From Balnearium lithotrophicum (GTDB lineage: Bacteria > Aquificota > Aquificia > Desulfurobacteriales > Desulfurobacteriaceae): a stretch of DNA of 64,000 nucleotides. A program made the position numbers and the translations under genes. Under the pieces are notes generated by a model. It did not search any database and had not been told where the DNA came from. It was given only the letters and a program-made list of their open reading frames with translations. The stretch spans positions 1 to 64,000 of the forward strand of contig NZ_FXTM01000004.1 in the NCBI RefSeq assembly GCF_900182585.1. Direction: 5' to 3'. Positions within the stretch are counted from its first letter, which is position 1; each line of letters opens with the position of its first letter. Of this stretch, positions 18,376 to 33,019 are shown piece by piece.

Positions 18376-18957
18376 ATGAGAAGAGCAGAGGTTAAAAGGG
18401 AAACTAAGGAAACTCAAGTAGAGCTCTCCATAAACCTTGACGGAAGTGGAAGGTACAGTGTAGAAACGGACATCCCGTTTCTCACCCACATGGTGGAACT
18501 CTTTTCAAGACACTCCTCATTTGACGTTGAGCTGAAGGCAGAGGGAGATGTTGAGGTTGACCATCACCACCTCATAGAGGACGTTGGGATTGTTTTAGGG
18601 GAGGGGATAAGGAGGGCCCTTGGAGAAAAGAGAGGAATAAACAGGTACGGATTTTTCACCCTTCCCATGGACGAAACTCTAATCTCATCCGCCGTTGACC
18701 TTTCCGGAAGGCCTTTCTTTGTCTACAGGGGATTTCCAGAGTTTAAAACACTTATGGGAATAGAGTTTGACCTTTTCAGGGAGTTCTGGAAGTCCTTTAC
18801 AAACTCACTAATGTGCAATCTTCACATCACCTGCCACTACGGATTAAACCTTCACCACATGGCTGAGGGAACGTTTAAGTGTGTGGCGAGAGCTCTCAAA
18901 ATGGCAGTTTCCTTAACCAATAACGATAGTGTTCCATCTACAAAGGGAGTCTTGTAA
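18376..18957 (+). CDS. hisB: Imidazoleglycerol-phosphate dehydratase
   Basis: A 193-residue HisB that catalyses the sixth step of histidine synthesis. Manganese-binding histidine motifs DHHHLIEDVGI and HHMAEGTFK are both visible, as is LSGRPF. I chose ATG 18376, six bases after AAGGAG; a GTG at 18370 lies inside that site. It follows pheA closely, and its stop overlaps the ATG of the next gene (TAATG). Confidence 0.95.
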   Translation: MRRAEVKRETKETQVELSINLDGSGRYSVETDIPFLTHMVELFSRHSSFDVELKAEGDVEVDHHHLIEDVGIVLGEGIRRALGEKRGINRYGFFTLPMDETLISSAVDLSGRPFFVYRGFPEFKTLMGIEFDLFREFWKSFTNSLMCNLHITCHYGLNLHHMAEGTFKCVARALKMAVSLTNNDSVPSTKGVL

Positions 18958-19913
18958 TGAAAACTACGCTTGTAACAGGAGGAGCAGGTTTTATAGGTTC
19001 ACATTTAGTTGAGGAGTTACTAAAAGAGGGAAGGAGAGTTGTTGTTTTGGATGACCTGTCGTCTGGAAAGTTAGAAAATCTCCCCAAGTCGGAAAATCTT
19101 GAATTCATAGAAGGTTCTATTACCGATAGGAAACTCCTTAGAGAGATTTTCTCGGAATTTAAGTTTAAAACTGTTTTTCACCTTGCTGCAGTTCCGTCTG
19201 TAGAACTTTCCGTTAGAGAACCTCTAAAAACTCACGAGGTTAACTGTAATGGAACTATTTACTTGTTAGAGGAAGCTAAGAAAAGAGGAGTTGATAGGTT
19301 CATCTTCTCATCGTCTGCAGCCGTTTATGGAAATAGGCCTGAACTCCCCAAAAGGGAAGACCATCCTGTAGAGCCTGTTACTCCGTACGGTGTTGATAAG
19401 TACGCATCGGAACGTTTTGTAGTTAACAGTTATTTTCTCTACGGTCTTAAAGCAACTGCACTGAGATTTTTCAACGTTTATGGAGAAAGGCAGGATTCCA
19501 GTTCTCCTTATTCGGGAGTTATTTCAATTTTTATTGATAGGTTCATTCGATTTAAAAATGGAGAGAATGTAACAGTTGATGTTTTTGGGGATGGAAGACA
19601 AACGAGGGATTTTGTTTATGTAAAGGATGTTGTTAGAGCTCTACTCCTATGTGAATCTTCCAACGAGGCCTTTGGAGAAGTTTTTAACGTAGGAACGGGA
19701 AGAGAGACATCCCTTTTAGACTTGATTAAAACGTTAAAGGAAATAACGGGGGTTTCTCCTCCTGTCATTTTCAAACCTCCAAGAAAGGGTGATATAAAAA
19801 GGTCGTATGCCGATATAACAAAACTTTCAAATTTGGGTTATAAACCTGGATATTCCCTGAATGAAGGACTTAAGAGAACCTATCTTTGGGAAGAAAAGAG
19901 GAGGGGATTGTGA
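18957..19913 (+). CDS. NAD-dependent sugar-nucleotide 4-epimerase (PelX-like)
   Basis: A 318-residue extended short-chain dehydrogenase. The NAD site GGAGFIGSH is at residues 8-16, the catalytic pair Y144/K148 is in YGVDK, and the serine stretch FSSSAAVYG is at 117-125. It resembles UDP-glucose or UDP-GlcNAc 4-epimerases. As the first gene of a pel locus it most likely makes UDP-GalNAc for Pel, the role known for PelX in Pseudomonas protegens; that substrate is inferred. It overlaps hisB and pelC at its ends, indicating translational coupling. Confidence 0.85.
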   Translation: MKTTLVTGGAGFIGSHLVEELLKEGRRVVVLDDLSSGKLENLPKSENLEFIEGSITDRKLLREIFSEFKFKTVFHLAAVPSVELSVREPLKTHEVNCNGTIYLLEEAKKRGVDRFIFSSSAAVYGNRPELPKREDHPVEPVTPYGVDKYASERFVVNSYFLYGLKATALRFFNVYGERQDSSSPYSGVISIFIDRFIRFKNGENVTVDVFGDGRQTRDFVYVKDVVRALLLCESSNEAFGEVFNVGTGRETSLLDLIKTLKEITGVSPPVIFKPPRKGDIKRSYADITKLSNLGYKPGYSLNEGLKRTYLWEEKRRGL

Positions 19914-20398
19914 AATCAAAAATTTTTGTTTTGATACTTTCCGTTTTCTTCGTCTTAGGTTGTACACAAGTAAGTAGAGTAAAGGTATTGCCTACCAAGA
20001 AAAATACTTTAGCGGTTATTCCTTTTGAAAACTATACAGTTACTCCTCTCGCAGGATACAGAGTTGCTTCAATACTGGAAGGGGTTTTAAGAAGTAAGGG
20101 TTATAAAGTTTTAAATAGAGTTTGGAGTTATTCCGACCAAGAGCCGACCGAAGCAGACTTTAAAAAGTGGTGGAACAAGGCTATAAAGGAGGGAGCAACA
20201 CTGATAGTTTATGGAAGCGTTAATGAATTTAGGTACAAAACAGGTATTGACGGGGAACCTGCAGTAAGCGTAACAGTATACTTTTACAACGTAAATACGA
20301 AAAAAGTTGTTTGGAGCGCAACTCTTTCAAAATCAGGTCTTTCATTTCAATCTTTAGGAACAGTTTCTCAAGAGTTGTTCGACAAAATTTTTAAGTAA
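19910..20398 (+). CDS. pelC: PelC-like outer-membrane lipoprotein
   Basis: A 162-residue lipoprotein. The signal peptide ends in a lipobox (VLGC) with the acylated Cys at about residue 18. The mature part (LAVIPFENYTVTPLAGYRVASILEGVLRSKG and GATLIVYGSVNEFRYK) has the TolB/CsgG-like fold pattern known for PelC, which forms a ring at the outer membrane guiding Pel toward PelB. It starts with GTG overlapping the epimerase stop. Placement just before pelD supports the call. Confidence 0.8.
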   Translation: MKSKIFVLILSVFFVLGCTQVSRVKVLPTKKNTLAVIPFENYTVTPLAGYRVASILEGVLRSKGYKVLNRVWSYSDQEPTEADFKKWWNKAIKEGATLIVYGSVNEFRYKTGIDGEPAVSVTVYFYNVNTKKVVWSATLSKSGLSFQSLGTVSQELFDKIFK

Positions 20399-20409
20399 GG
20401 AAATTTTCT

Positions 20410-21666
20410 ATGAAGTTTAAGTTTCTTGAGAAGGAAATAATTACAGAAAAGATTTTAAGTATAGTAATTATAGAGGTTTTAATTTTTGTTGCATTCCTTT
20501 TTGTAGTTGGCTACTTCTTCAATCCAAATGATATCCTTTTTTTAAATTCTGTAATTTCTCCTGTTTTATTAATTCTAATAGTTTTTACTCTATATTACGG
20601 ATTTACTATAGGTATTTTCTTTCTAATTCTTCTATCATTATCCGCTCTATTTTTGTACAGTACCTATCCATTAAGTGTTATACTCTGGTATCTCATTATT
20701 GTCATTATTGGTGGAGAATTTCGATTCTACTGGAATAGAAAAATTGAGGAAGCTGAAGCTGTTAAAATTTACTACAGTGAACAGGTGGATACGTTAAGAA
20801 AAAATTTGTATTTACTAAAGCTATCCCATGACCAACTTGAAAACATTTATATATCTAGGCCTTTAAGTATTAGAAGAATTTTGGAGGATTTAAAGGAGAA
20901 TCTCTTAAAGAGCTCTGCTACGGAAGAAAAGTTAATTAGATTTTTTCTGTCTCTGTTATCCCAGAACTTTCAAGTTTTTAGAGCTGCAGTCTATGAGCTT
21001 TCAAAGGACAATCGATTGCTAAGTACCTATAAACTTGGAAATGCCTCCGATTTTTCGTTGGAGGATCCACTCATTGAAAAAGCTTTGAGTGAAGAGGAGA
21101 ATTTTATTCTGACTCCGAAGGATGCAGAGGACAAAATTGGAACTTCAGTAGTAGCTCTTGTAGAAACTATTGGTGATAGAAAGTATCTCCTTTCCATTCA
21201 GGATATTGACTTCAGTAATCTGTCTGAGGAGATAATTCACTATATATACGTTATTTTTTCCTACATAATTGAGGACCTTTTCTACGGAAGAGAACTAAGA
21301 GAAGAGGAAGTAAAAATCTGCTCCTTTGACTTTATGAAAGAATACAAAAAAGCGTACAACCTTTACAAGAAGTTTGGGACACAGTCTACTGTTGTTCTTA
21401 TGAAATTACTTTCTAATTATTCAGATGAAATTTATGAAAAGCTAAAGGAAAATTTGAGAACTCTCGATGTCCCTTGTCGAATTGAAAATAACTATGTAGC
21501 AATTCTATTGCCTTTAACCGGAAGAGCAGGAGCAAAATCATTTTCTAATAGGATTAGAAAGATTTTTGAAAAGGAAGTTTTAATTCTTGAAATTTTCAAT
21601 GTCGATTCCGACTTAAAGTCAATGTATGAAAAAATAAAATATTTTATTTCGAATAGAGAGAAATGA
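20410..21666 (+). CDS. pelD: PelD-like c-di-GMP receptor of the Pel synthase
   Basis: A 418-residue inner-membrane protein. Four hydrophobic helices lie in about residues 18-100, then a coiled coil, a GAF-like domain (about 150-295) and a C-terminal degenerate GGDEF domain. R350-T-L-D353 occupies the RxxD inhibitory-site position, exactly five residues before ENNYV (359-363), which replaces GGDEF and is followed by AILLP. It should bind c-di-GMP but not make it, as PelD does in Pseudomonas. Strongly AT-rich coding sequence. Confidence 0.88.
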   Translation: MKFKFLEKEIITEKILSIVIIEVLIFVAFLFVVGYFFNPNDILFLNSVISPVLLILIVFTLYYGFTIGIFFLILLSLSALFLYSTYPLSVILWYLIIVIIGGEFRFYWNRKIEEAEAVKIYYSEQVDTLRKNLYLLKLSHDQLENIYISRPLSIRRILEDLKENLLKSSATEEKLIRFFLSLLSQNFQVFRAAVYELSKDNRLLSTYKLGNASDFSLEDPLIEKALSEEENFILTPKDAEDKIGTSVVALVETIGDRKYLLSIQDIDFSNLSEEIIHYIYVIFSYIIEDLFYGRELREEEVKICSFDFMKEYKKAYNLYKKFGTQSTVVLMKLLSNYSDEIYEKLKENLRTLDVPCRIENNYVAILLPLTGRAGAKSFSNRIRKIFEKEVLILEIFNVDSDLKSMYEKIKYFISNREK

Positions 21667-22499
21667 ATGGTTTAAATGAGTTATTGATAATCTTTGTTTC
21701 CCTTATTTTGTTTAACTGGATATTTCTTCCGACAAGATTTAAACAGGATAGGCTATTTCCTCTATATTTATTTGAATTTTTATTGTTAGGACCCTTTGGC
21801 ATTTTCATTCTCCTTCTTCATCCAATTTTTCTTAAATTTCAAAAACCAAATCCTAAATATAAGCACTTAGAATTTAGTGATTTCAGAGTTCCTAAGTACT
21901 TCAAGCGTTCTTTAGGTGAAGCTGCTGTACTGAATCCAGATGAAAGGTTTATTTATTATCTAATAAATATAGGGAAAGCTTCGTATTTAAAGATATTAAA
22001 AAAATTTCTTAAAAGTAAGAATGATGAATTTCGGTTACTTACCTTTACCTATTTGGAAAAAAAAGAAAAGGAAATTTTGGAACATATTAAAAATTATCTT
22101 GTTAAAGTTAATAGTGACCCCCGTTTCTTTTATAACTTAGGGAAATTGTACTGGGAACTCGTTTATTCTTCAATAGTTGATGAGGAATTAGAAAAAATTT
22201 ACTTAGAAAAGGCCAAACTCTATTTAGAAAATCACTTAAGGTACTTTCCCTACGATGAACGCTCCCTTTTTTTGTTAGGTAGGATATATCATAGAAATCA
22301 AAGCTTTAACAAAGCTCTTTTTTACTACCAACAGAGTTTGGATTTTGGATTTCCCTCAGAGAGAATTTTGCCGTACATGATTGAGTGCCTCTTTAAATTG
22401 GGAAGAAGGGATGAAATTTTAAAGCTTAGAAGGGAAGTCTCTTATAGACCTTTAGCTTCTGATTTAAAGACAAACTCTATGCTAAGGGTGTGGCTTTAA
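21663..22499 (+). CDS. pelE: PelE-like membrane protein with TPR repeats
   Basis: A 278-residue protein with two N-terminal transmembrane helices (about residues 7-20 and 32-54) and a helical repeat region with TPR character (FYNLGKLYWEL; LFLLGRIYHRNQSFNKALFYYQQSLDFG). This matches PelE, a component of the inner-membrane Pel synthase complex with PelD, PelF and PelG. It overlaps pelD (ATGA) and pelF (TAATG), so expression is translationally coupled. Confidence 0.8.
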   Translation: MNGLNELLIIFVSLILFNWIFLPTRFKQDRLFPLYLFEFLLLGPFGIFILLLHPIFLKFQKPNPKYKHLEFSDFRVPKYFKRSLGEAAVLNPDERFIYYLINIGKASYLKILKKFLKSKNDEFRLLTFTYLEKKEKEILEHIKNYLVKVNSDPRFFYNLGKLYWELVYSSIVDEELEKIYLEKAKLYLENHLRYFPYDERSLFLLGRIYHRNQSFNKALFYYQQSLDFGFPSERILPYMIECLFKLGRRDEILKLRREVSYRPLASDLKTNSMLRVWL

Positions 22500-24013
22500 T
22501 GGTAGTGCTTGATAGGAACAAAAAAATTGACATTTTATTTATTAATGAAGGAACTTATCCCATGGTCCGGGGAGGGGTAGCAGATTGGATTTCTCAACTG
22601 ATACTGGGAAATCCAGATATAAACTTTGGTGTAATCTTTATTGGTTCGAGTGAAGACGATTACGAAGGAATTCGTTATGACCTTCCGGAGAATTTAGTTT
22701 TTTTGGATATAAACTATCTTTTTGAAGAAGCAAATTTGCCTAAATCTAAGGAACTGCAGGGAAGTGATGAGGTATATAAATTAAAACATTTTCTATCTGT
22801 GAAAAAAAACATACCTGAAGAGTTAAAAACTCTTCAGTTTTATACTGAAAAAGTAACTTTGGAAAAGTTCTTATATGGAAGAAAAACTTGGTATTTTCTT
22901 GAAGATATTTATTTGGAAAATAATTTAGAACTTCCCTTCATAGAGTTTTTCTGGACCGTAAGGAATCTCTTTTTACCTCTGTGGAAAGTAGCTTCTATAG
23001 CTGAAGACTTTGTAAGGAGAAAAAAAAGTCTAAGACTTATTCATTCTCCGTCTACAGGATACGCAGGATTCATGTCTTCCCTACTGAAGAAGGAATTGAA
23101 TGTTCCATTCTTATTAACAGAGCATGGCATATATGTTAAGGAAAGAAAGATAGATATCCTGAACAGTGATATATTCAGGAGTAAGGATATTTTTTCTACA
23201 AATCCCTTTGGTATCGACCCCTTGAAAGTTCTTTGGATTAACTTTTTTATCAACTTAGGCAAGATTTCCTATGGTTGTGCAGATAAAATTACTTCGTTGT
23301 ACGAGGATGCGAGAAAAGTTCAGATATCTCTTGGAGCTCCATCTGAAAAAACAGAAGTAATCCCAAATGGCATTAAAATAGAAAAGTTTAATGTTGTTTT
23401 AAAAATGGCTTCGCCAAAACCCGTAGTGGCTTTAATTGGAAGGGTAGTTCCAATAAAGGATGTAAAGACCTTTATAAAAGCAGTAAAACTGTTGAATACT
23501 AAAATTGATGTGAAAGGTTGGGTTGTAGGACCTACAGATGAAGACCCTGAGTATTACCAGGAGTGCTTAAACTTGGTAGAGATTTTAGGATTGGAGGGAA
23601 ATTTAGAGTTCCTTGGGTTTCAAAACGTTGTAGATGTATTGAAAGAAGTTGGAGTTTCTACGCTAACGTCTATTAGTGAAGGAATGCCTCTCGTAGTTCT
23701 CGAGTCGTTGGCTGGAGGTATTCCGTTCGTAGCTACAGATGTAGGGGCGTGTAGGCAGCTAATTTATGGTGGTTTAGATGAAGAAGATGTTAAGTTAGGA
23801 AAGGCTGGTATTGTTGTTCCTGTTGCCAGTCCTTTTGAAACTGCAAGAGCTTACGAAAGACTTCTAACAGATAGGGCTTTTTGGACAAATTGCAGTAGAG
23901 TAGGAAGAAAGAGAGTGGAGTACTATTACAGTTTTGATAAATTTTTACTTAACTATAAACGGCTTTACTCTTCACTAATGGGTACGGAATGGCAGGAATA
24001 TCCTTTGAATTAA
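22499..24013 (+). CDS. pelF: PelF-like glycosyltransferase (GT4)
   Basis: A 504-residue cytosolic glycosyltransferase that polymerises the Pel sugar from UDP-sugar. The PelF hallmark NEGTYPMVRGGVADWISQLI-like N-terminus is present, then a GT-B C-terminal half with VALIGRVVPIKDVKTFIKA and the retaining motif E394-x7-E402 (SEGMPLVVLES). ATG 22499 overlaps the pelE stop. Its 3' end overlaps pelG by 25 bases. Confidence 0.9.
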   Translation: MVVLDRNKKIDILFINEGTYPMVRGGVADWISQLILGNPDINFGVIFIGSSEDDYEGIRYDLPENLVFLDINYLFEEANLPKSKELQGSDEVYKLKHFLSVKKNIPEELKTLQFYTEKVTLEKFLYGRKTWYFLEDIYLENNLELPFIEFFWTVRNLFLPLWKVASIAEDFVRRKKSLRLIHSPSTGYAGFMSSLLKKELNVPFLLTEHGIYVKERKIDILNSDIFRSKDIFSTNPFGIDPLKVLWINFFINLGKISYGCADKITSLYEDARKVQISLGAPSEKTEVIPNGIKIEKFNVVLKMASPKPVVALIGRVVPIKDVKTFIKAVKLLNTKIDVKGWVVGPTDEDPEYYQECLNLVEILGLEGNLEFLGFQNVVDVLKEVGVSTLTSISEGMPLVVLESLAGGIPFVATDVGACRQLIYGGLDEEDVKLGKAGIVVPVASPFETARAYERLLTDRAFWTNCSRVGRKRVEYYYSFDKFLLNYKRLYSSLMGTEWQEYPLN

Positions 24014-25365
24014 AGAGGTTTTTGAAGAAGAAGAGTTTACTCTCAGTTATTATTGCTACTTCTTACTCTGCAGCGTTAAGTTCAGGAAACTGGATTATAG
24101 CAGTTATTTTCCTCTTTTTATTTTCAATTATTTCTCAAAAAATATCATCAAATCCACAAGTTATTGTGGAATTTGACACTTACATAACTTATTGTATAGC
24201 TATAAGCTTAATACTTTCTGGTTTCTTTCAGCTTTTATTTACTAGATATATAGCTGATAGGTTATTTGAAATGGAGGAAGAGAGAGTATTCCCTAATCTC
24301 ATGGGAAGCTTATTGTTATCTAATTTGGTTTCTCTATTTTTTGGGATTTTTATTTCCAACTATTTATTTTCCGGATTTTCAATCTATTATAAATTAATTT
24401 TTATTTTTACCATTTCTGTGTTATCCTCTGTGTGGATTCTAAATTCCTTACTTATTGGTATTAAGAAATTTAAATATGTTCTATTTTCCTATGTTTTGTC
24501 ATACTTAACGTTAGGTATACTAATGTTGGTTTTTTCCAAAAAGGGTATCTTGTACTTAATGACAGCATTTTACTTTAGTCAATCCCTTCTCTTAGCTTTA
24601 CTACTTTTTTTGATAACAAAGGAGTATTTTTCAACGAAACTTATTGAGTTTGACTTTCTTAAACCTAAGAGAAGTTTTTATTCTTTGGCTTTTATAGGTT
24701 TCTTCTACAATCTAGGGATATGGATAGACAAGATAATATTTTGGTTTCATCCTCTTACAGGAATGAAAGTTTTTGGCAATATAAGAGCCTCCTACATTTA
24801 GGATACACCTGTTATATTTGCTTATTTGGCCATAGTAGTAGGAATTGCTGTATTTTTCCTAGAGTTGGAAATTGACTTTTCCGTTGCTTATAATGACTAT
24901 TACAGTGCTGTGAGAAACTGGGGAAGTTTATCGGAGCTCTATAAGTTGGCCAATCAACTTATCTCTACTGGGAGGGAAACTATTTTTGATACTATGAGAA
25001 TACAAATAATATTTACAATATTCTTTCTCTTTGCTGAAGGTTACCTGTTTAAACTGTTAAAATTTCCCAGTATTTATTCCATTGTCTTAAATATCCTTTT
25101 GTTAGGGACATACATTCAATTGATATTTATGGTTATAGTAGCTATCTTAGAATACTTTGATAGAAGAAAAGAAGTTTTTTTAGTAACTTTCTCTTTTGCG
25201 TTTCTGAATTTGACTCTAACCTATCTGACAATAAATCTGGGACCTTACTATTATGGTTACGGCTTTGTTTACTCTCTTTTAATCTCTAGTTTGTTGGGAA
25301 TTTATATATTAAGGGGGTTTCTCCGTGATATTCATTATAGAACTTTTGTTCTTTTTGATAAGTAA
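23989..25365 (+). pseudogene. pelG: PelG-like polysaccharide transporter, interrupted by an in-frame TAG
   Basis: The reading frame encodes a multi-helix membrane protein (about 12 segments) opening with AGISFELKRFLKK, as in PelG, the inner-membrane transporter of the Pel synthase. A TAG at 24799-24801 stops it after 270 residues. The same frame then stays open to 25365 ([13 protein letters not shown] and more helices). Read through, the product would be 458 codons, close to the usual length of about 456. The interrupted position is one where related proteins usually have tyrosine, a single-base change. It may be a true recent nonsense mutation, a sequence error, or suppressed; TAG ends ordinary genes here (rpmG, queC), so it is not generally reassigned. 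Confidence 0.8.
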
Positions 25366-26458
25366 TGCTGTATGTGCTGAATATCCTAATTCCGTTCTTT
25401 TTTATTACTCAAATAGACCCATAACTAATGAACAGCTCAATAGATTTGATTGGATAGTTTTGGATAGTAACGCAAACTGTGTTCTAAAGGAAATAAGAGA
25501 ACAATTTTGGATGAAAAGGAAACCGAAATTAATAGGTTATTTAAGTATAGGAGAGGTAGAAAAGTCAGAAAAAAGTTTTTTTAAGAACTGTATACTTGGC
25601 AAAAATAAAGAGTGGAACTCCTATATTATTGACTTAAGAAAGGATACTTGTTTTAACAAACTTTTGAAAAAAGCAAGTATTATTCGTAACAAGGCATTTG
25701 ATGGATTTTTCCTTGATACGATAGATTCTTATCAAGCAGTTCTTCCAAGAGATGAATGGAAAGGTTACGAACGTGCCGAAGTAAAATTTATAAAAACCCT
25801 TAGGAAAAAGTATCCTGATTCTCTCATACTTGTTAACAGAGCTTTCAATATTTTTGATAATGTTAAGTCCTATATAGATGGATTTGTGGTGGAAGAATTA
25901 TTTTACAATATTGATTCTGAGGGAAATATTGAGGAAAATTCTAAGGATGAAGTAAATTATTTAATAAATAAACTTAGCTATATTAAGAGGAATGGCATTC
26001 CTGTTATTGTTATAGACTATATTCCTTCCTATAGAATTGACTTAATTTGGAAAGATTTAATAAATATAAGGAAGTTAGGTTTTATTCCATACATTTCAAA
26101 TAGAAATCTATGTGTTATTGGATATTCCTGTGGTATAGAGATACCGCGGAAAGTAATCCTTATCTACGATTCAACATTTACTTTTTCTAAAATAAGACAG
26201 GTTAGTGCCGCTAATAGACTTCTGCAATTACCCGTGGAATACTTAGGATTTAAACCGGAAATTTACGATATAAACAGAGAAAAACTACCTCCTCCCTATA
26301 AATCTGAGGGTTACTTAGGAGTAATAGTAACACAAGTTAGTAAAAAAAACTTATTAAAGCTTGACAGTTGGCTAATAAAAGCAAAGAAGAATGGGTTGAA
26401 AATTTTCTTTTTTAATAATCTTCCTCTAAAAAAAAACTATTTAAAGAGTTTGGATTAA
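25325..26458 (+). CDS. pelA: PelA-like protein, N-terminal glycoside hydrolase part (frame breaks at its end)
   Basis: A 377-residue product starting at GTG 25325 inside the end of pelG. A signal peptide (about residues 1-18) leads into a GH114 endo-alpha-1,4-polygalactosaminidase-type domain. [12 protein letters not shown] carries D131/D134, and VVEELF carries E190/E191, matching the acidic active site of the PelA hydrolase domain. A second domain follows (about 270-377). The frame ends at TAA 26456, just after an A9 run; the continuation lies in the -1 frame. Together with the next entry this is one PelA of about 910 residues. Confidence 0.82.
26428..26437 (+). other. A9 run / slippery heptamer at the pelA frame junction
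   Basis: Nine A's (26428-26436) precede C26437. In the zero frame the end reads AAA-AAA-AAC, so A-AAA-AAC (26431-26437) is an in-phase -1 slippery heptamer. A -1 shift, or one extra A in the transcript, joins the two halves of pelA exactly. No clear stimulatory structure is visible beyond a weak 4-bp hairpin. Confidence 0.6.
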
Positions 26459-26592
26459 ACGTTGTTACTAATGTTCCTTTAACCTTTCCTAAGATAAAAA
26501 AGTTTGTAAAGTTCGGATTTGAGAAACCTTTAACTTTAAAACCTCCATCTTTTCTAATTAACTATGGAGATAGTATACTAAAACCGCTTGTA

Positions 26593-28056
26593 GTGGAGAT
26601 ATTCTCTCCTAAACTTGTTCACGTTCCTTTTGCTATAACCAAATGGGGTGGATATTCACTGGATAATGCCTTTTTGGATGAAGATAAGGAACTGTGGAGT
26701 TATGACCCATTTAAACTATTTAGAGAAGTGTTTAATCCTTCATTCCCAGCTCCAGATATTACTACGGAGAATGGTAATAGGATTTTAATTGCTCATATAG
26801 ATGGGGATGCCTTTTTTGGAGTTGCTGACTTTAACCCAAAAAAACACTTAGGGGAAATTTTAAAAGAAGAAATTCTTACAAAATTCAAGATTCCTCATGG
26901 AGTAAGTGTAATAGAGGGGGAGATTGCTCCTTGGGGACTCTATCCGAATGAATCGAAGAAACTTATGAAAATAGCCAAAGAAATTTTCGCTCTTCCAAAC
27001 GTTGAAATGGCGTCCCATACGTTCTCTCATCCTTTTGATTGGAGAATTGTAGGAAAGAATTCAAAAGGACTACCAGCTGCTCACAATCTTCCTATAAAGG
27101 GATATGTATTTAATGTTAAAAGAGAAATTTTTGGTTCTGTTAATTTTATTAACAGATATCTATCTCCAGATGGTAAAAAAAGAACAATGGATTTATTCTG
27201 GTCAGGAAATTGTGACCCTGACAGGAATGCTGTTGAACTTACTTATAAGGCAAAGGTTTATAACATGAATGGAGGAGATACAACTATAAATTATTCAGAA
27301 CCTTTCTTATCATGTGTCGCTCCATCTGGAGTTAATTTTGGGAACTTTTATCAGGTTTATGCTCCAATATCGAATGAAATGTACTACACCAACGATTGGC
27401 ACGGTCCCTATTGGGGATTTATTAGAGTTATTCAAACGTTCAAACTTACAGATAAGCCGAGACGACTGAAACCAATAGATATTTATTATCACTTTTATTC
27501 CTGTCAGAAATTATCATCTCTTAATGCTTTAAAAAAAGTTTACAAGTACGCTCTATCTCAAGAGGTTATTCCTCTCTTTCCTTCCCAATATTCACAGATT
27601 GTTTTGGATGCTCGAAATACAGTTATCTATGGCAATAGGAAGGAAGGCTTTACAGTAAAAAATCAGGGATTTTGTAGGACACTAAGAGTACCCATTTCCT
27701 GGGGATATCCTGATGTTTTAAGGAGTGTTGGAGTAATAGGTTATAGGAAGATAAATAATTATTACTATATTCATCTATCAGGAAGTGGTAGCTATAAGTT
27801 ATTGTTTTCTAATAAAAAACCCAAATTTCGACTTATTAGTTCAAATGGAAGAGTAAAGAAGTGGATAGAAAAGAAGAAAGGTAATTTTATTCTTTTAGAT
27901 TTGGAGCTCCAATCATACCAAAAACCAACTTATGCTAATTTAGAAAGCAGTTGTAGAATAAAATTGCTTAAAGGGCGTATTGAGAAAAGGAAAAAAACTC
28001 TATACAGATTATTAGGAGAAAAGGGTATTGAACTCAAAGTCATTTGCTCTAAGTGA
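26593..28056 (+). CDS. pelA: PelA-like protein, C-terminal deacetylase part
   Basis: This frame is open from 26419; the first usable start alone is GTG 26593, with no convincing ribosome site, which argues it is made as part of a fusion. The product is the PelA polysaccharide deacetylase domain. HIDGDAF (H68, D70, D72) and SHTFSHPF (H142, H146) give the expected metal-binding Asp/His set. The far C-terminus (about residues 350-487) is a beta-rich domain. PelA partially deacetylates Pel in the periplasm, making it cationic. Its end overlaps the next gene. Confidence 0.82.
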   Translation: MEIFSPKLVHVPFAITKWGGYSLDNAFLDEDKELWSYDPFKLFREVFNPSFPAPDITTENGNRILIAHIDGDAFFGVADFNPKKHLGEILKEEILTKFKIPHGVSVIEGEIAPWGLYPNESKKLMKIAKEIFALPNVEMASHTFSHPFDWRIVGKNSKGLPAAHNLPIKGYVFNVKREIFGSVNFINRYLSPDGKKRTMDLFWSGNCDPDRNAVELTYKAKVYNMNGGDTTINYSEPFLSCVAPSGVNFGNFYQVYAPISNEMYYTNDWHGPYWGFIRVIQTFKLTDKPRRLKPIDIYYHFYSCQKLSSLNALKKVYKYALSQEVIPLFPSQYSQIVLDARNTVIYGNRKEGFTVKNQGFCRTLRVPISWGYPDVLRSVGVIGYRKINNYYYIHLSGSGSYKLLFSNKKPKFRLISSNGRVKKWIEKKKGNFILLDLELQSYQKPTYANLESSCRIKLLKGRIEKRKKTLYRLLGEKGIELKVICSK

Positions 28057-29068
28057 TATAGTATCTAATTTAGAGCTTTTTGTTTTTGTAGTTATAGTAG
28101 TTTTTCTATCTGTTGTTCTTTTCCCATGGAATCTCAAAGAAAAGATTTTAGAGGAGGAAAATATAAATACTGATTTGTTAATATCCTATCTTCAAGCTCT
28201 GGAAAAAGTCAGTGATGACCCGCTAATACATTTAAAATTAGCTATAGAACTTACAAAAAAGGGTGAGTTAGATAGAGCTTTGAAGGAAATGAATACGGTA
28301 AACTTCGACCTTATACCGGATAATTTAAAAGATAGAGCTTTATTTTTATCTTTTAAATTGTATGAAACTCTGTTTTTTTCTTGTAAAAGTCAGGAGAGGA
28401 AGTCTTTAATAAGAAAAAGAATAGAAGACTTAATTATTTTAGCACTTCAAAGATATAAAGATAATCCTCAAAAGCTCTTGTATCTCTATAAATTTTCAGA
28501 AAAAATGTACTTTCCTGAAGAGTCATTGAAAATAGCCCTATTACTTTCAATGTTTAACAGTAATTGGAAAATAAAAGCTTTTATAAAGGCAGTTGAAATT
28601 GGGAAAATTGATTTAGCTTACAGTATTCTTAAGGAGATTTCTATTAAAAAACTGCCAGATAGATACAAAGTTGTAGCTTATCAAATTGCCTTCTCCAAGA
28701 AGAATTACAGTTTAGCTATAGCTTGTTTAGAGGATAGTCCTACTTTGATGAGAAAGTATTGGAAAACTTTGGTTTTTCTTTATTTTAAAACGAAAAATAC
28801 TAGAAAATTCGACAGATTTGTTAAGCAAGTTCTTGAAAGAAATGAGAACTTAAGAATGAAGCAGGAGGTGTTAAAATTAGCAATAGAGCATGCACTTTGG
28901 AATTCAGATTATAAGAAGGTTAAGGTTTTAATAAGAAGATATGGACTACAGTTAGCAAATACTCCTGAATTTATAAAATTTCTTTTGAAGTCCGCATTAG
29001 CTACTGGAGATTCTTCCTTTGTAGATTGGTTATCCCGTGAAATCTTTTCCAAGGTAGAAAAATGCTAA
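28028..29068 (+). CDS. Inner-membrane-anchored TPR protein (N-terminal part of a split PelB)
   Basis: A 346-residue protein with a single transmembrane helix (about residues 16-36) and then tandem helical repeats of TPR type (HLKLAIELTKKGELDRALKEM and others). In Pseudomonas, PelB is one protein with a membrane anchor, periplasmic TPRs and an outer-membrane barrel. Here the anchor-plus-TPR portion appears as its own gene just before the barrel gene. TTG start overlapping pelA; ends overlapping the next ATG. Confidence 0.7.
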   Translation: MNSKSFALSDIVSNLELFVFVVIVVFLSVVLFPWNLKEKILEEENINTDLLISYLQALEKVSDDPLIHLKLAIELTKKGELDRALKEMNTVNFDLIPDNLKDRALFLSFKLYETLFFSCKSQERKSLIRKRIEDLIILALQRYKDNPQKLLYLYKFSEKMYFPEESLKIALLLSMFNSNWKIKAFIKAVEIGKIDLAYSILKEISIKKLPDRYKVVAYQIAFSKKNYSLAIACLEDSPTLMRKYWKTLVFLYFKTKNTRKFDRFVKQVLERNENLRMKQEVLKLAIEHALWNSDYKKVKVLIRRYGLQLANTPEFIKFLLKSALATGDSSFVDWLSREIFSKVEKC

Positions 29069-31812
29069 AGAAATTTGTAATCTTACTAATTTTACTCGTA
29101 TTACCTGTGGAAGTTGTAATTGCTTCTTCTGAACATTCAAATAGGTCGGAATCGTGTGAAATTAATTATAAAAATATAAGAGAATTAGAGGATATACTGA
29201 AACTACTTTTAAATGCAGCACTAAGTTCCCGTGATTTATCCCTTGCAGAGAAGGTAGTTAGGAAAGGAATAGCTATTAATCCCAACAACTCTTACTGGTA
29301 CAAATGGTTAGGAAAGATTCTTGTTTGGACAAATAGAGCATCAGAGGCTCTTCCGTATCTTAAAAAAGCGTTTGAACTTTCTAAGGATAGGAAAATTGCA
29401 GAAGAACTTTTTCATTTAGCAATAGAAACAAACAGATTTGATTTGGCTAAGTCCCTGTTACCCTACGTAAAGAACGTTCCCGATAATCTTGTTATTTCCA
29501 TCTATGGAGGAGTTGGAGACATTGGTTCGTTGCTTTCCTTCTTGGAGGAGAAGGGTAAACAGAAGTATCTTCTTATGGCTGCAGACATAAGGTTAATGAT
29601 TGGGGATTGGAAGGGAGCTCTAAAGGATATTAACAGAGTTCTCATTTTAAATCCTGGAAATATGAGAGCTTATCTATTAAAAGCCTCAATATACTATTCA
29701 ATGAAAAAATTTAAGAAATCTCTCCTTATTCTTAATGAGGGATTCAAACATCTCAATCTTAAGGATAAGTATGCTGTCAAGCTTCTTCAGAATCTCTCAG
29801 ATTTGGGATGGATGCTCAATGATTTTTCCTCTGTTAGGAAAGCTGCAGAAACTCTCATAAAGTTAAACCAGGGTAGATGGGAAGATTTCTACAGACTTAT
29901 TTTCATTTATAAATTTTGTTGCCCTCAGAGAATGGTTCCTTTAGGGCTGAAGTTTTACAGGGAGTTTGATTCGCTAGAAGTAATACCTACAATTCTGGAT
30001 TATCTGCTTCAAAAGAAGAACTATGAGGAGTTTTTAAAGATAATCTCTAAACTTAAAGAAAATGATAGAAAGAAACTATTGAGGAACGATTATCTTTTTG
30101 TTAGTTATCTAAAGGTTTTATCTAAAATGGGAAAATATTCTTTGGTTAACAGGTTAATAGAGGATAGATTAAAAAATTCTCCCTCTCCTTCAGTTATTAC
30201 ATACTTAATCTATATGAAATCAGACTTGAACGACTTTAAAGGTTTAAAGGAATTAGTAAGGAAATATCAGAGGTACAAAAGTAGGATACCAGTTCCTTTT
30301 GCCTTAGCTTACCTAAAGCTAAGAAATTCCCAGATGGCTTTAAAACTCTTAGAGGGAGGAAGGGAGAAAAATCCACTACTCTATGCTGAAGTTCTTTCTC
30401 TTTCAGGAAAAAAAGAGGAAGCAAAGAGACTAAGATATTTCGTTTTCAAAAAATTGGAGGAAAAACTTAAGAAAAATCCATCTCTTTTAAAGAAGAGGGA
30501 TTTCATTTACGATTTTCTCTACTTAGCTTCATACTTCTATCCACCTGGAAAGTATGAACGTTTATTACAAGAAGCATCTTCTTTTTTGACAGAGAAAGAA
30601 TACAGAGAGTTATACTTAAGTTATCTGCTAAATATGGATGAAAAAACAAAAGTTATGTTCCTATGGAATAGAAAGAGGTATGAACTTTCTCCTTGGATGA
30701 AATTGAGCATAGCTCTTGACCAGTTTGATATGTACCAAATAGAAAGAACAATTAAAAAGTATTCTGGTCTCTTATCCGTTGAGGATTTGGTAACTGCTGA
30801 AGAGGAAATTGGTAGAACAAAAGAAGCGATAAGTAAGGCGTTTAGTAGTTTAGAAAATAATAGATTTAACGTTAAGCTTTACCACAAATTCGTTCAGCTC
30901 GTTAACTCATACTCAAGTTACGTTTCAATATCCCCCAAAATCCTTTCAAGAAGTGGATACAGAGAATTTAAAGTGGATTTTGTTAACAAAAATTCGCTGG
31001 TTGAAAAAGGAATAAACCTTTGGACTTACGTAGGTGATAGCAGTCCTATTAATAAAGATAAAAGTACTTTACTAAAATCTTTCAAAACTAATTTCTTGGG
31101 ATTAAAGGTGGAAAAGTTATTCTCTTTGGGAAGTTACGAATTTCACTTTCTAAACTATAGAAAGGATAGAACATTTACAAATTTTGGTTTTTCTCTTCAG
31201 TCACACGTTATTAATGAGTTAAGTCTATCCTTCTCAGGAGATTTTAATAAAGAGAGCTCCGATACGGTATATCTCTACCTGGGTGGAATGGAGGATAAGT
31301 TTACAACAACACTCTCCCTTTCGAGAACGAGGTATGGCTTGGACTTAGGACTGAACTATAAGAAGTATAAATCCCAGAGTGGTAGTACAGTTGGTTATGG
31401 GAGGGAAGCTTCCCTTGGATTTACATATACCTTGAAGTCTGGTTATCCTGATATTTCAATTAGACCCTATTTCGTACTTGGAAAGTATAGAGCAACGGGA
31501 AAGCTCGGTAACATAGGAAATATAATGGCACATGTAGGAAGCCCTGTTCCTGAGGATTCAACAACTCTTGGGCTGGAAGGTAACATCGGCTATGGTAGAG
31601 TAAGTTCTTTTACGAGGGATTGGAAACCTTTTTTAAGTGGTTCAATTCTTCACAATTCTAAGTATGGTTGGGGATTCAATATTTCGGGAGGAGTAGGGGG
31701 CGAGCTTTTTCATGGGGATATGCTACGATTAGAACTTCAGAGCTCCCACAATGCGGGGAAAATAAATGAGCATCTTTACCAAATTATTGTTAATTATAAG
31801 CGTTTCTATTAG
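29062..31812 (+). CDS. pelB: PelB-like TPR/outer-membrane beta-barrel protein
   Basis: A 916-residue exported protein. A signal peptide (about residues 1-22) is followed by many TPR-like helical repeats up to about residue 620. The last 290 residues are rich in alternating hydrophobic/aromatic strands (for example TTTLSLSRTRYGLDLGLNYK) and end in IIVNYKRFY, the aromatic C-terminus typical of outer-membrane barrels. PelB forms the outer-membrane pore for Pel and binds PelA through its TPRs. Its 3' end overlaps the next gene by 47 bases. Confidence 0.82.
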   Translation: MLKKFVILLILLVLPVEVVIASSEHSNRSESCEINYKNIRELEDILKLLLNAALSSRDLSLAEKVVRKGIAINPNNSYWYKWLGKILVWTNRASEALPYLKKAFELSKDRKIAEELFHLAIETNRFDLAKSLLPYVKNVPDNLVISIYGGVGDIGSLLSFLEEKGKQKYLLMAADIRLMIGDWKGALKDINRVLILNPGNMRAYLLKASIYYSMKKFKKSLLILNEGFKHLNLKDKYAVKLLQNLSDLGWMLNDFSSVRKAAETLIKLNQGRWEDFYRLIFIYKFCCPQRMVPLGLKFYREFDSLEVIPTILDYLLQKKNYEEFLKIISKLKENDRKKLLRNDYLFVSYLKVLSKMGKYSLVNRLIEDRLKNSPSPSVITYLIYMKSDLNDFKGLKELVRKYQRYKSRIPVPFALAYLKLRNSQMALKLLEGGREKNPLLYAEVLSLSGKKEEAKRLRYFVFKKLEEKLKKNPSLLKKRDFIYDFLYLASYFYPPGKYERLLQEASSFLTEKEYRELYLSYLLNMDEKTKVMFLWNRKRYELSPWMKLSIALDQFDMYQIERTIKKYSGLLSVEDLVTAEEEIGRTKEAISKAFSSLENNRFNVKLYHKFVQLVNSYSSYVSISPKILSRSGYREFKVDFVNKNSLVEKGINLWTYVGDSSPINKDKSTLLKSFKTNFLGLKVEKLFSLGSYEFHFLNYRKDRTFTNFGFSLQSHVINELSLSFSGDFNKESSDTVYLYLGGMEDKFTTTLSLSRTRYGLDLGLNYKKYKSQSGSTVGYGREASLGFTYTLKSGYPDISIRPYFVLGKYRATGKLGNIGNIMAHVGSPVPEDSTTLGLEGNIGYGRVSSFTRDWKPFLSGSILHNSKYGWGFNISGGVGGELFHGDMLRLELQSSHNAGKINEHLYQIIVNYKRFY

Positions 31813-33019
31813 TTTCTTCTCCTCAGCCTGTTCCCATACTTTTGGGCAAGTTTATGAAACTTGCTACTTTGAATCCTTTAATAAACAGGTTCTATTAAGA
31901 ATAAAACTTACAACAGATTCTGGAATTTTGATTCTAAAGCCAGACGTTAATGGAGATGGAAAACTAAGCATTGATGAACTCAACCTCTTACTCAATAAGC
32001 TCAAGGATACATTGTTTAAGAATATTGTTATTCTGAAGGATGGCCAACAGCTTAAATATAGGATTGTTGCATCGGATATAAAACCCAATCCGTTAGGCTG
32101 GATATACGGTGTAACAGCTTCTTTCTCCGTAGTATTGGATGGAGCAGGAAACTATTTCTTCTCCGATAACAATTTTTTAAAAAAAGGTCCCAAAGATAGA
32201 ATAGAATTTCTCATAGATGCTTCTTTGAATCCAACAGCTCATTTGGGGAAGCATCCATGGGAGCTCTACGCTCAACTCAGTCCTTCTAAATCTTCTTTTC
32301 CCTTACGTAGCAGGACTTTCTGGGAATATCCGCAGAAAAAACTAATAGGAAATTTGAAATCTCAGAATTTTGAAGTTCTATTTTTCTTCGTTGCCCTCTT
32401 TCTGGGAATGGTTCACGCTCTAAGTCCAGGCCATGGTAAAACCCTAATTTCCGCATTTCTCGTTGGAAGCAAAGCAAGATTAAAGGATGCTTTTGTTCTA
32501 TCAATTATTACTGCCATTACTCACGTTTTTAGCGTTTTAGTTTTTGGACTTCTAATTTTCTTTTTAGAACCTTACCTAAATATGAAAAAGTACTACAACT
32601 TTATTCAGCTTCTATCAGGAGTAGCAATAGTTCTCGTTGGCTATTGGATGACCGTCAGAAACAGTAAGGCCCTTTTTAGCCATCACCACCATCATCATTA
32701 TCATAGTTTTTCACCTTCCTACAAAGACCTTCTGATTTCTGGAATTACAGGTGGGATTGTTCCCTGTCCATCTGCAATAGTTATCCTTTTGGTATCTATT
32801 GCCCTCAAAAAGGTCCTTTTGGGTTTGTTGGTAATCGTATTCTTCAGCTTAGGAATTGCTCTAACCCTCTTCTTGATTTCATCACTTACCCTTTTAGGTT
32901 TTAAGTTTCTCGAAGGTGCATTCAATAGGTTTGGAAAATGGGCATTTCTCTTATCTCCCTTAGTTGTAATCTTTGTTGGAATTGCCTTTATAGTTCAATC
33001 AGTTGTTAAACTTACTTAG
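31766..33019 (+). CDS. NicO/RcnA-type nickel/cobalt exporter with EF-hand domain
   Basis: A 417-residue membrane protein. A signal-like helix (1-22) leads to a periplasmic domain containing a textbook EF-hand loop at residues 60-71 (D60, N62, D64, K66, S68, E71), which should bind calcium. Six hydrophobic helices follow, with HALSPGHGKT, the NicO histidine motif, and a histidine-rich loop H306-H311, H313. RcnA-type proteins export Ni2+/Co2+. It overlaps pelB by 47 bases, so it may be co-transcribed, but a functional link to Pel is not evident. Confidence 0.82.
   Translation: MSIFTKLLLIISVSISFFSSACSHTFGQVYETCYFESFNKQVLLRIKLTTDSGILILKPDVNGDGKLSIDELNLLLNKLKDTLFKNIVILKDGQQLKYRIVASDIKPNPLGWIYGVTASFSVVLDGAGNYFFSDNNFLKKGPKDRIEFLIDASLNPTAHLGKHPWELYAQLSPSKSSFPLRSRTFWEYPQKKLIGNLKSQNFEVLFFFVALFLGMVHALSPGHGKTLISAFLVGSKARLKDAFVLSIITAITHVFSVLVFGLLIFFLEPYLNMKKYYNFIQLLSGVAIVLVGYWMTVRNSKALFSHHHHHHYHSFSPSYKDLLISGITGGIVPCPSAIVILLVSIALKKVLLGLLVIVFFSLGIALTLFLISSLTLLGFKFLEGAFNRFGKWAFLLSPLVVIFVGIAFIVQSVVKLT

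Follow-up and report, generated by a model that had tools for sequence, protein, structure and literature searches.

In bacteria, tracts of nine A residues (A9) cause transcriptional slippage, the classic case being dnaX of Thermus thermophilus (PMC1088944). The six 'green' 9A genes of Baranov et al. 2005 (PMC1088944) are close precedents for pelA of Balnearium lithotrophicum, as they likewise form one ORF in homologs and two at an A9 tract, and slippage would restore the product; the pel operon described here differs in bearing a second, non-restorable lesion. The poly(A) frameshifts of Blochmannia and Buchnera (PMC3017870) are likewise private, lie in tracts of A9 or longer within otherwise conserved genes and occur several per genome. 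However, B. lithotrophicum has a 1.73 Mb genome in which A9 is rare, not a reduced endosymbiont genome, and slippage in it is putative. In Citrobacter rodentium tssM1, an A11 tract likewise lies just 5' of a premature stop, and added A's join the frames, restoration occurring at a frequency of ~20–25% (PMC4256274). That case is experimentally proven and belongs to a functioning system, whereas pelG, the partner gene in the present case, is broken. The A9 tract of T. thermophilus dnaX (cited in PMC1088944) is shared with pelA, but slippage shortens the dnaX product and would lengthen that of pelA; the closer parallel to Thermus is dnaX of the genus studied here. Pseudomonas PelA (PDB 9cgy; PMC12022489) is the same protein, with hydrolase, mixed alpha/beta and deacetylase domains, and is encoded by a single uninterrupted gene, unlike the split pelA of B. 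lithotrophicum.

The pel operon and its split pelA gene

The window referred to below is the whole 64,000-nt stretch of B. lithotrophicum DNA that was analysed (GCF_900182585.1, NZ_FXTM01000004.1, positions 1 to 64,000). Based on the ORF list, Pfam, NCBIfam and tblastn, it contains on its plus strand a pel operon in the order pelC, pelD, pelE, pelF, pelG and pelA, followed by two pelB-type ORFs. The preceding intact gene (18957..19913, ORF list) encodes an NAD-dependent, GalE-like epimerase with orthologs in 5/5 genus relatives at ~70% identity; it may correspond to the PelX-type epimerase known from pel clusters. Intact copies of pelC (19886..20398; ORF list, tblastn against the relatives' operons), pelD (20410..21666; Pfam PelD_GGDEF), the TPR-containing pelE (21663..22499; Pfam, tblastn against the relatives' operons) and the glycosyltransferase gene pelF (22490..24013) come next, and the PelF product scores 503 bits against the NCBIfam PelF model, with 0/51 invariant residues changed. 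Both pelG and pelA are interrupted. The distal end is formed by an ORF for a pelB-like TPR protein (28028..29068, tblastn against the relatives' operons) and by pelB, with TPR and a C-terminal beta barrel (29062..31812; Pfam B-barrel_PelB_C).

As the initial annotation had reported, pelA is split at an A9 run, which occupies 26428–26436, with T before it and C after it. The hydrolase half (25325..26458) begins with GTG at 25325, has a signal peptide-like N terminus and a GH114-type domain (Pfam Glyco_hydro_114), and reads CTA AAA AAA AAC TAT TTA AAG AGT TTG GAT TAA across the tract. The heptamer A-AAA-AAC (26431–26437) is therefore in phase with it, and the TAA at 26456–26458 is the seventh codon past AAC. 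The deacetylase half lies in the -1 frame, open over 26419–28056 (545 aa) and with coding sense from ~26437 according to the alignment. The view that the two halves form one continuous PelA also stood up to comparison: they align to the single PelA of relatives and meet at the A-run, where joining them gives a spacing equal to that of PelA in relative G033 (P-Y-N-E-K-F-Y-R-A-F-G stretch). The C-terminal half finds its match in PelA chain 9cgy, a solved structure (E 1e-84), and hydrolase and deacetylase regions are both present in a Pel operon context. The deacetylase half was also considered as a separate gene and rejected as such, since the first ATG, GTG or TTG of the -1 frame is the GTG at 26593, far from the junction and in agreement with the earlier claim that this half has no good start of its own, no Shine-Dalgarno sequence was seen and a signal peptide of its own is absent.

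Programmed -1 frameshifting, one of four explanations that the initial annotation had put forward without preferring any, was not supported. The heptamer conforms to the in-phase X-XXY-YYZ pattern, but in-phase A-AAA-AAC occurs 13 times and A-AAA-AAG 20 times in the 108 ORFs of the 110,748-base contig, and such heptamers are common in uninterrupted genes. A second in-phase A-AAA-AAC within the hydrolase ORF itself (26344..26350), across which the frame is unchanged, serves as a negative control. The slippery heptamer of pelA is not special; the rare thing is the A9, which has no second copy on the contig and is the longest mononucleotide tract in the operon, within the coding region. No stimulator was found either: the 93 nt downstream (26438–26530) fold worse than shuffled sequences in a pseudoknot-free prediction (z +1.40), the upstream stretch 26405–26430 is by eye pyrimidine/AT-rich without a Shine-Dalgarno-like purine element, and no known RNA family was found at the junction. 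Moreover, the A-AAA-AAC heptamer is a weak one in E. coli, where A-AAA-AAG is the stronger of the two (PMC5009743).

The site is absent from relatives. Among 61 genomes searched, B. lithotrophicum included, pelA was found in 24 relatives, 23 of which have it as one uninterrupted frame of ~860–925 codons; the remaining copy, in G004, is interrupted by contig ends alone. The junction is readable in 23 relatives, and in all of these it lacks an A-run and shows varied codons. Both the frame break and the A9 are thus private to the B. lithotrophicum genome among the relatives compared. A genome scan with the junction found no second strain carrying it, and the plasmid collection gave no match. RNA polymerase slippage at the A9, also raised by the initial annotation, is a plausible source of leakage, though not a plausible conserved programme.

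A second lesion in pelG

The pelG gene, which overlaps pelA, carries an in-frame TAG (24799–24801) in place of a Tyr that is invariant among the aligned relatives. Part 1 (23989..24801) ends at this premature stop and covers positions 1–268 of the 452 of the Pfam PelG profile, and part 2, in the same frame (24826..25365), covers 280–452. No Shine-Dalgarno sequence was seen on inspection before the TTG of part 2. In relatives, with the exception of G003, pelG is open over 457–484 codons. The TAG is a lesion independent of the pelA break in the same pathway, and since P. aeruginosa needs its full set of seven pel genes (PMC10269871), rescuing pelA alone should not restore Pel. The initial annotation was silent on this nonsense codon and on the low-GC, apparently foreign character of the operon; both point to operon inactivation.

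A reading of TAG as an amino acid was set aside, as several intact neighbouring ORFs terminate in TAG. Among ~25 neighbours compared with genus relatives no broken gene was found, the five flagged comparisons being antisense ORFs. Scanning the contig for breaks by hexamer content flagged the pelG TAG and missed pelA; the method is too insensitive in the low-GC pel region to count as evidence.

Origin of the operon and fate of pel in the genus

The pel operon appears to have been horizontally acquired, to judge from its composition and phylogeny. Its GC content is 0.327, against 0.438 for the remaining window. Its Pel proteins are ~24–54% identical to those of G004, the sole genus relative with a pel operon that is not visibly decayed, whereas most neighbouring housekeeping genes are 70–100% identical to those of genus relatives, with hemL and similar nearby genes at ~90% within the genus. 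In a tree of concatenated PelF, PelG and PelA, the operon falls outside its own family and joins four genomes of a different one (100/100). Four genus relatives have hemL immediately after rpoC, while ~20 kb, including the pel operon, lie between the two genes here. Besides housekeeping genes and the low-GC pel operon, this interval (window 12700–33040) contains a membrane transporter-like gene (31766–33019) that has no match in the five genus relatives. Since part of the stretch consists of housekeeping genes, it is a rearranged region rather than one clean island.

The pel locus native to the genus lies behind the epimerase gene, and it is decayed or lost in sister species. In G003, the ortholog of the epimerase sits immediately 5' of a pel remnant (G003:C103:3468-9670), a pseudogene array in which pelC, pelF and pelG are broken, pelA is missing and pelB is present as fragments. 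G002 retains only a scrap of pelC behind the epimerase, and no pelA match was found in the sister species G001 and G005.

Long A runs in the genome

Pattern searches of the 1.73 Mb genome counted 129 exact A8, 11 A9 and 3 A10 runs. Frame breaks occur at 4 of the 14 A9/A10 runs, namely in pelA and three other genes. One of these encodes an FeS subunit (4Fe-4S dicluster), and its break falls at an A9 (G000:C9:11971-11981); the gene is otherwise well conserved and is intact in four sister species, which have AAG-rich lysine codons at the position of the tract. A gene for a membrane-sensor GGDEF protein, with uninterrupted relatives in two sister species, is split at an A10 (G000:C18:20940-20949), and so is a gene for a lysine/asparagine-rich, low-complexity protein with no assigned family (G000:C11:13133-13142). 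By comparison, breaks were found at 0/30 A8 runs examined in the same genome (the first 30 listed, not a random sample) and at 0/30 runs of at least nine in five sister species. The one-sided hypergeometric P, calculated by hand, is 0.007 for each contrast, both of which were picked after the breaks had been seen. The contrast with the sister species leans towards an assembly error or a lineage-specific effect, and the sharp step between A8 and A9 leans towards tolerance of breaks by slippage.

An A9 is also kept in dnaX in 5/6 genomes of the genus (B. lithotrophicum copy G000:C3:19706-19716, minus strand). The bases after it are CTGA or CTAA; with one added A, or after a -1 shift, AAC and an immediate stop would be read.

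Possible explanations for the frame break

We consider it probable, though with no great margin of confidence, that a recent one-base indel in the slippage-prone A tract put pelA out of frame, within a pel operon that was horizontally acquired, is undergoing inactivation and is perhaps leaky. The nonsense codon of pelG is independent of this indel; the main products would then be a truncated PelG and a periplasmic hydrolase half that ends in a short tail foreign to the family. RNA polymerase adding an A at the A9 may give some full-length PelA, a -1 slip of the ribosome being less likely, and such full-length protein would be incidental leakage rather than a selected programme. Partial rescue of this kind is plausible, as the conservation of the dnaX A9 in the genus favours slippage at such tracts. 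A broken pelA together with a premature stop in pelG suggests a recently broken, perhaps slightly leaky operon and not a designed switch. Directly established are the frame break, the stop in pelG, the lack of the site in relatives, the operon's low GC and deviant phylogeny, and the decayed or lost native pel locus of the genus; that the lesions are real and recent is presumed, and slippage may be occurring. As to age, the invariant residues of PelA are kept at 26/27 positions in the hydrolase half and 61/61 in the deacetylase half, and 4/48 are changed in PelG, stop included. Distances to the outgroup are no greater for PelF and PelG than those of their nearest relatives and slightly greater for PelA. 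With PelF and PelG not accelerated and PelA only slightly so, any decay, if real, would be very young, and the lesions would be recent.

The conserved residues of PelA also weigh against decay, and the four breaks in 14 long runs here against none in 30 in the sister species could mean an assembly-specific homopolymer error. The main rival is an error in the called length of the tract, the true length leaving pelA as one gene; we regard this as rather unlikely. The break in the otherwise well-conserved FeS subunit gene and the intact conserved residues of PelA speak for it, and in the view of the GeneTack authors most BLAST-validated singletons are likely to be sequencing errors (PMC3711429). 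However, the pelG TAG is a base substitution and does not fit a homopolymer error, the A8 runs examined show no breaks, the dnaX A9 is called alike in four other assemblies, and the implied errors run in both directions. It is distinctly improbable that RNA polymerase slippage or -1 frameshifting at the A9 is functional and yields a useful balance between short hydrolase and full-length PelA, on the pattern of C. rodentium tssM. The A9 is in the correct phase and conforms to the A/T run of at least nine used in PMC1088944, the deacetylase half is conserved, the conserved dnaX A9 is set up for the same shift (an added A, or -1), and the tssM case at A11 is proven (PMC4256274). Against this stand the private nature of the site, the lack of a downstream structure or an upstream Shine-Dalgarno-like stretch, the weakness of the heptamer in E. 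coli and the broken pelG in a pathway that needs every pel gene in P. aeruginosa. Least probable of all, in our estimate, is a phase-variable tract that toggles pelA on and off. The tract is the longest of its kind in the operon and intracoding, and A/T tracts are hypermutable (PMC1088944), but it is absent in relatives, a search of the literature library found no phase-variable Pel, and the remaining pathway is not intact, so that switching pelA would leave the operon off because of the pelG stop. The locus illustrates how easily an in-phase slippery heptamer suggests recoding where a comparison with relatives and the state of the other pel genes indicate that the gene is broken.

On the scale of the genome, it is possible but rather doubtful that the RNA polymerase of this free-living bacterium slips readily at runs of nine or more A's, in which case the breaks in pelA, the FeS subunit gene, the GGDEF protein gene and the fourth gene would be real, tolerated and partly expressed, as in insect endosymbionts, and dnaX would use slippage deliberately. 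If the tracts are real, the four split genes and the conserved dnaX A9 form a small testable set for polymerase slippage in a free-living bacterium. The dnaX A9 lies at about codon 365 in the four genomes in which the gene is complete in the fetched stretch, and the sequence 5' of it varies among the genomes of the genus.
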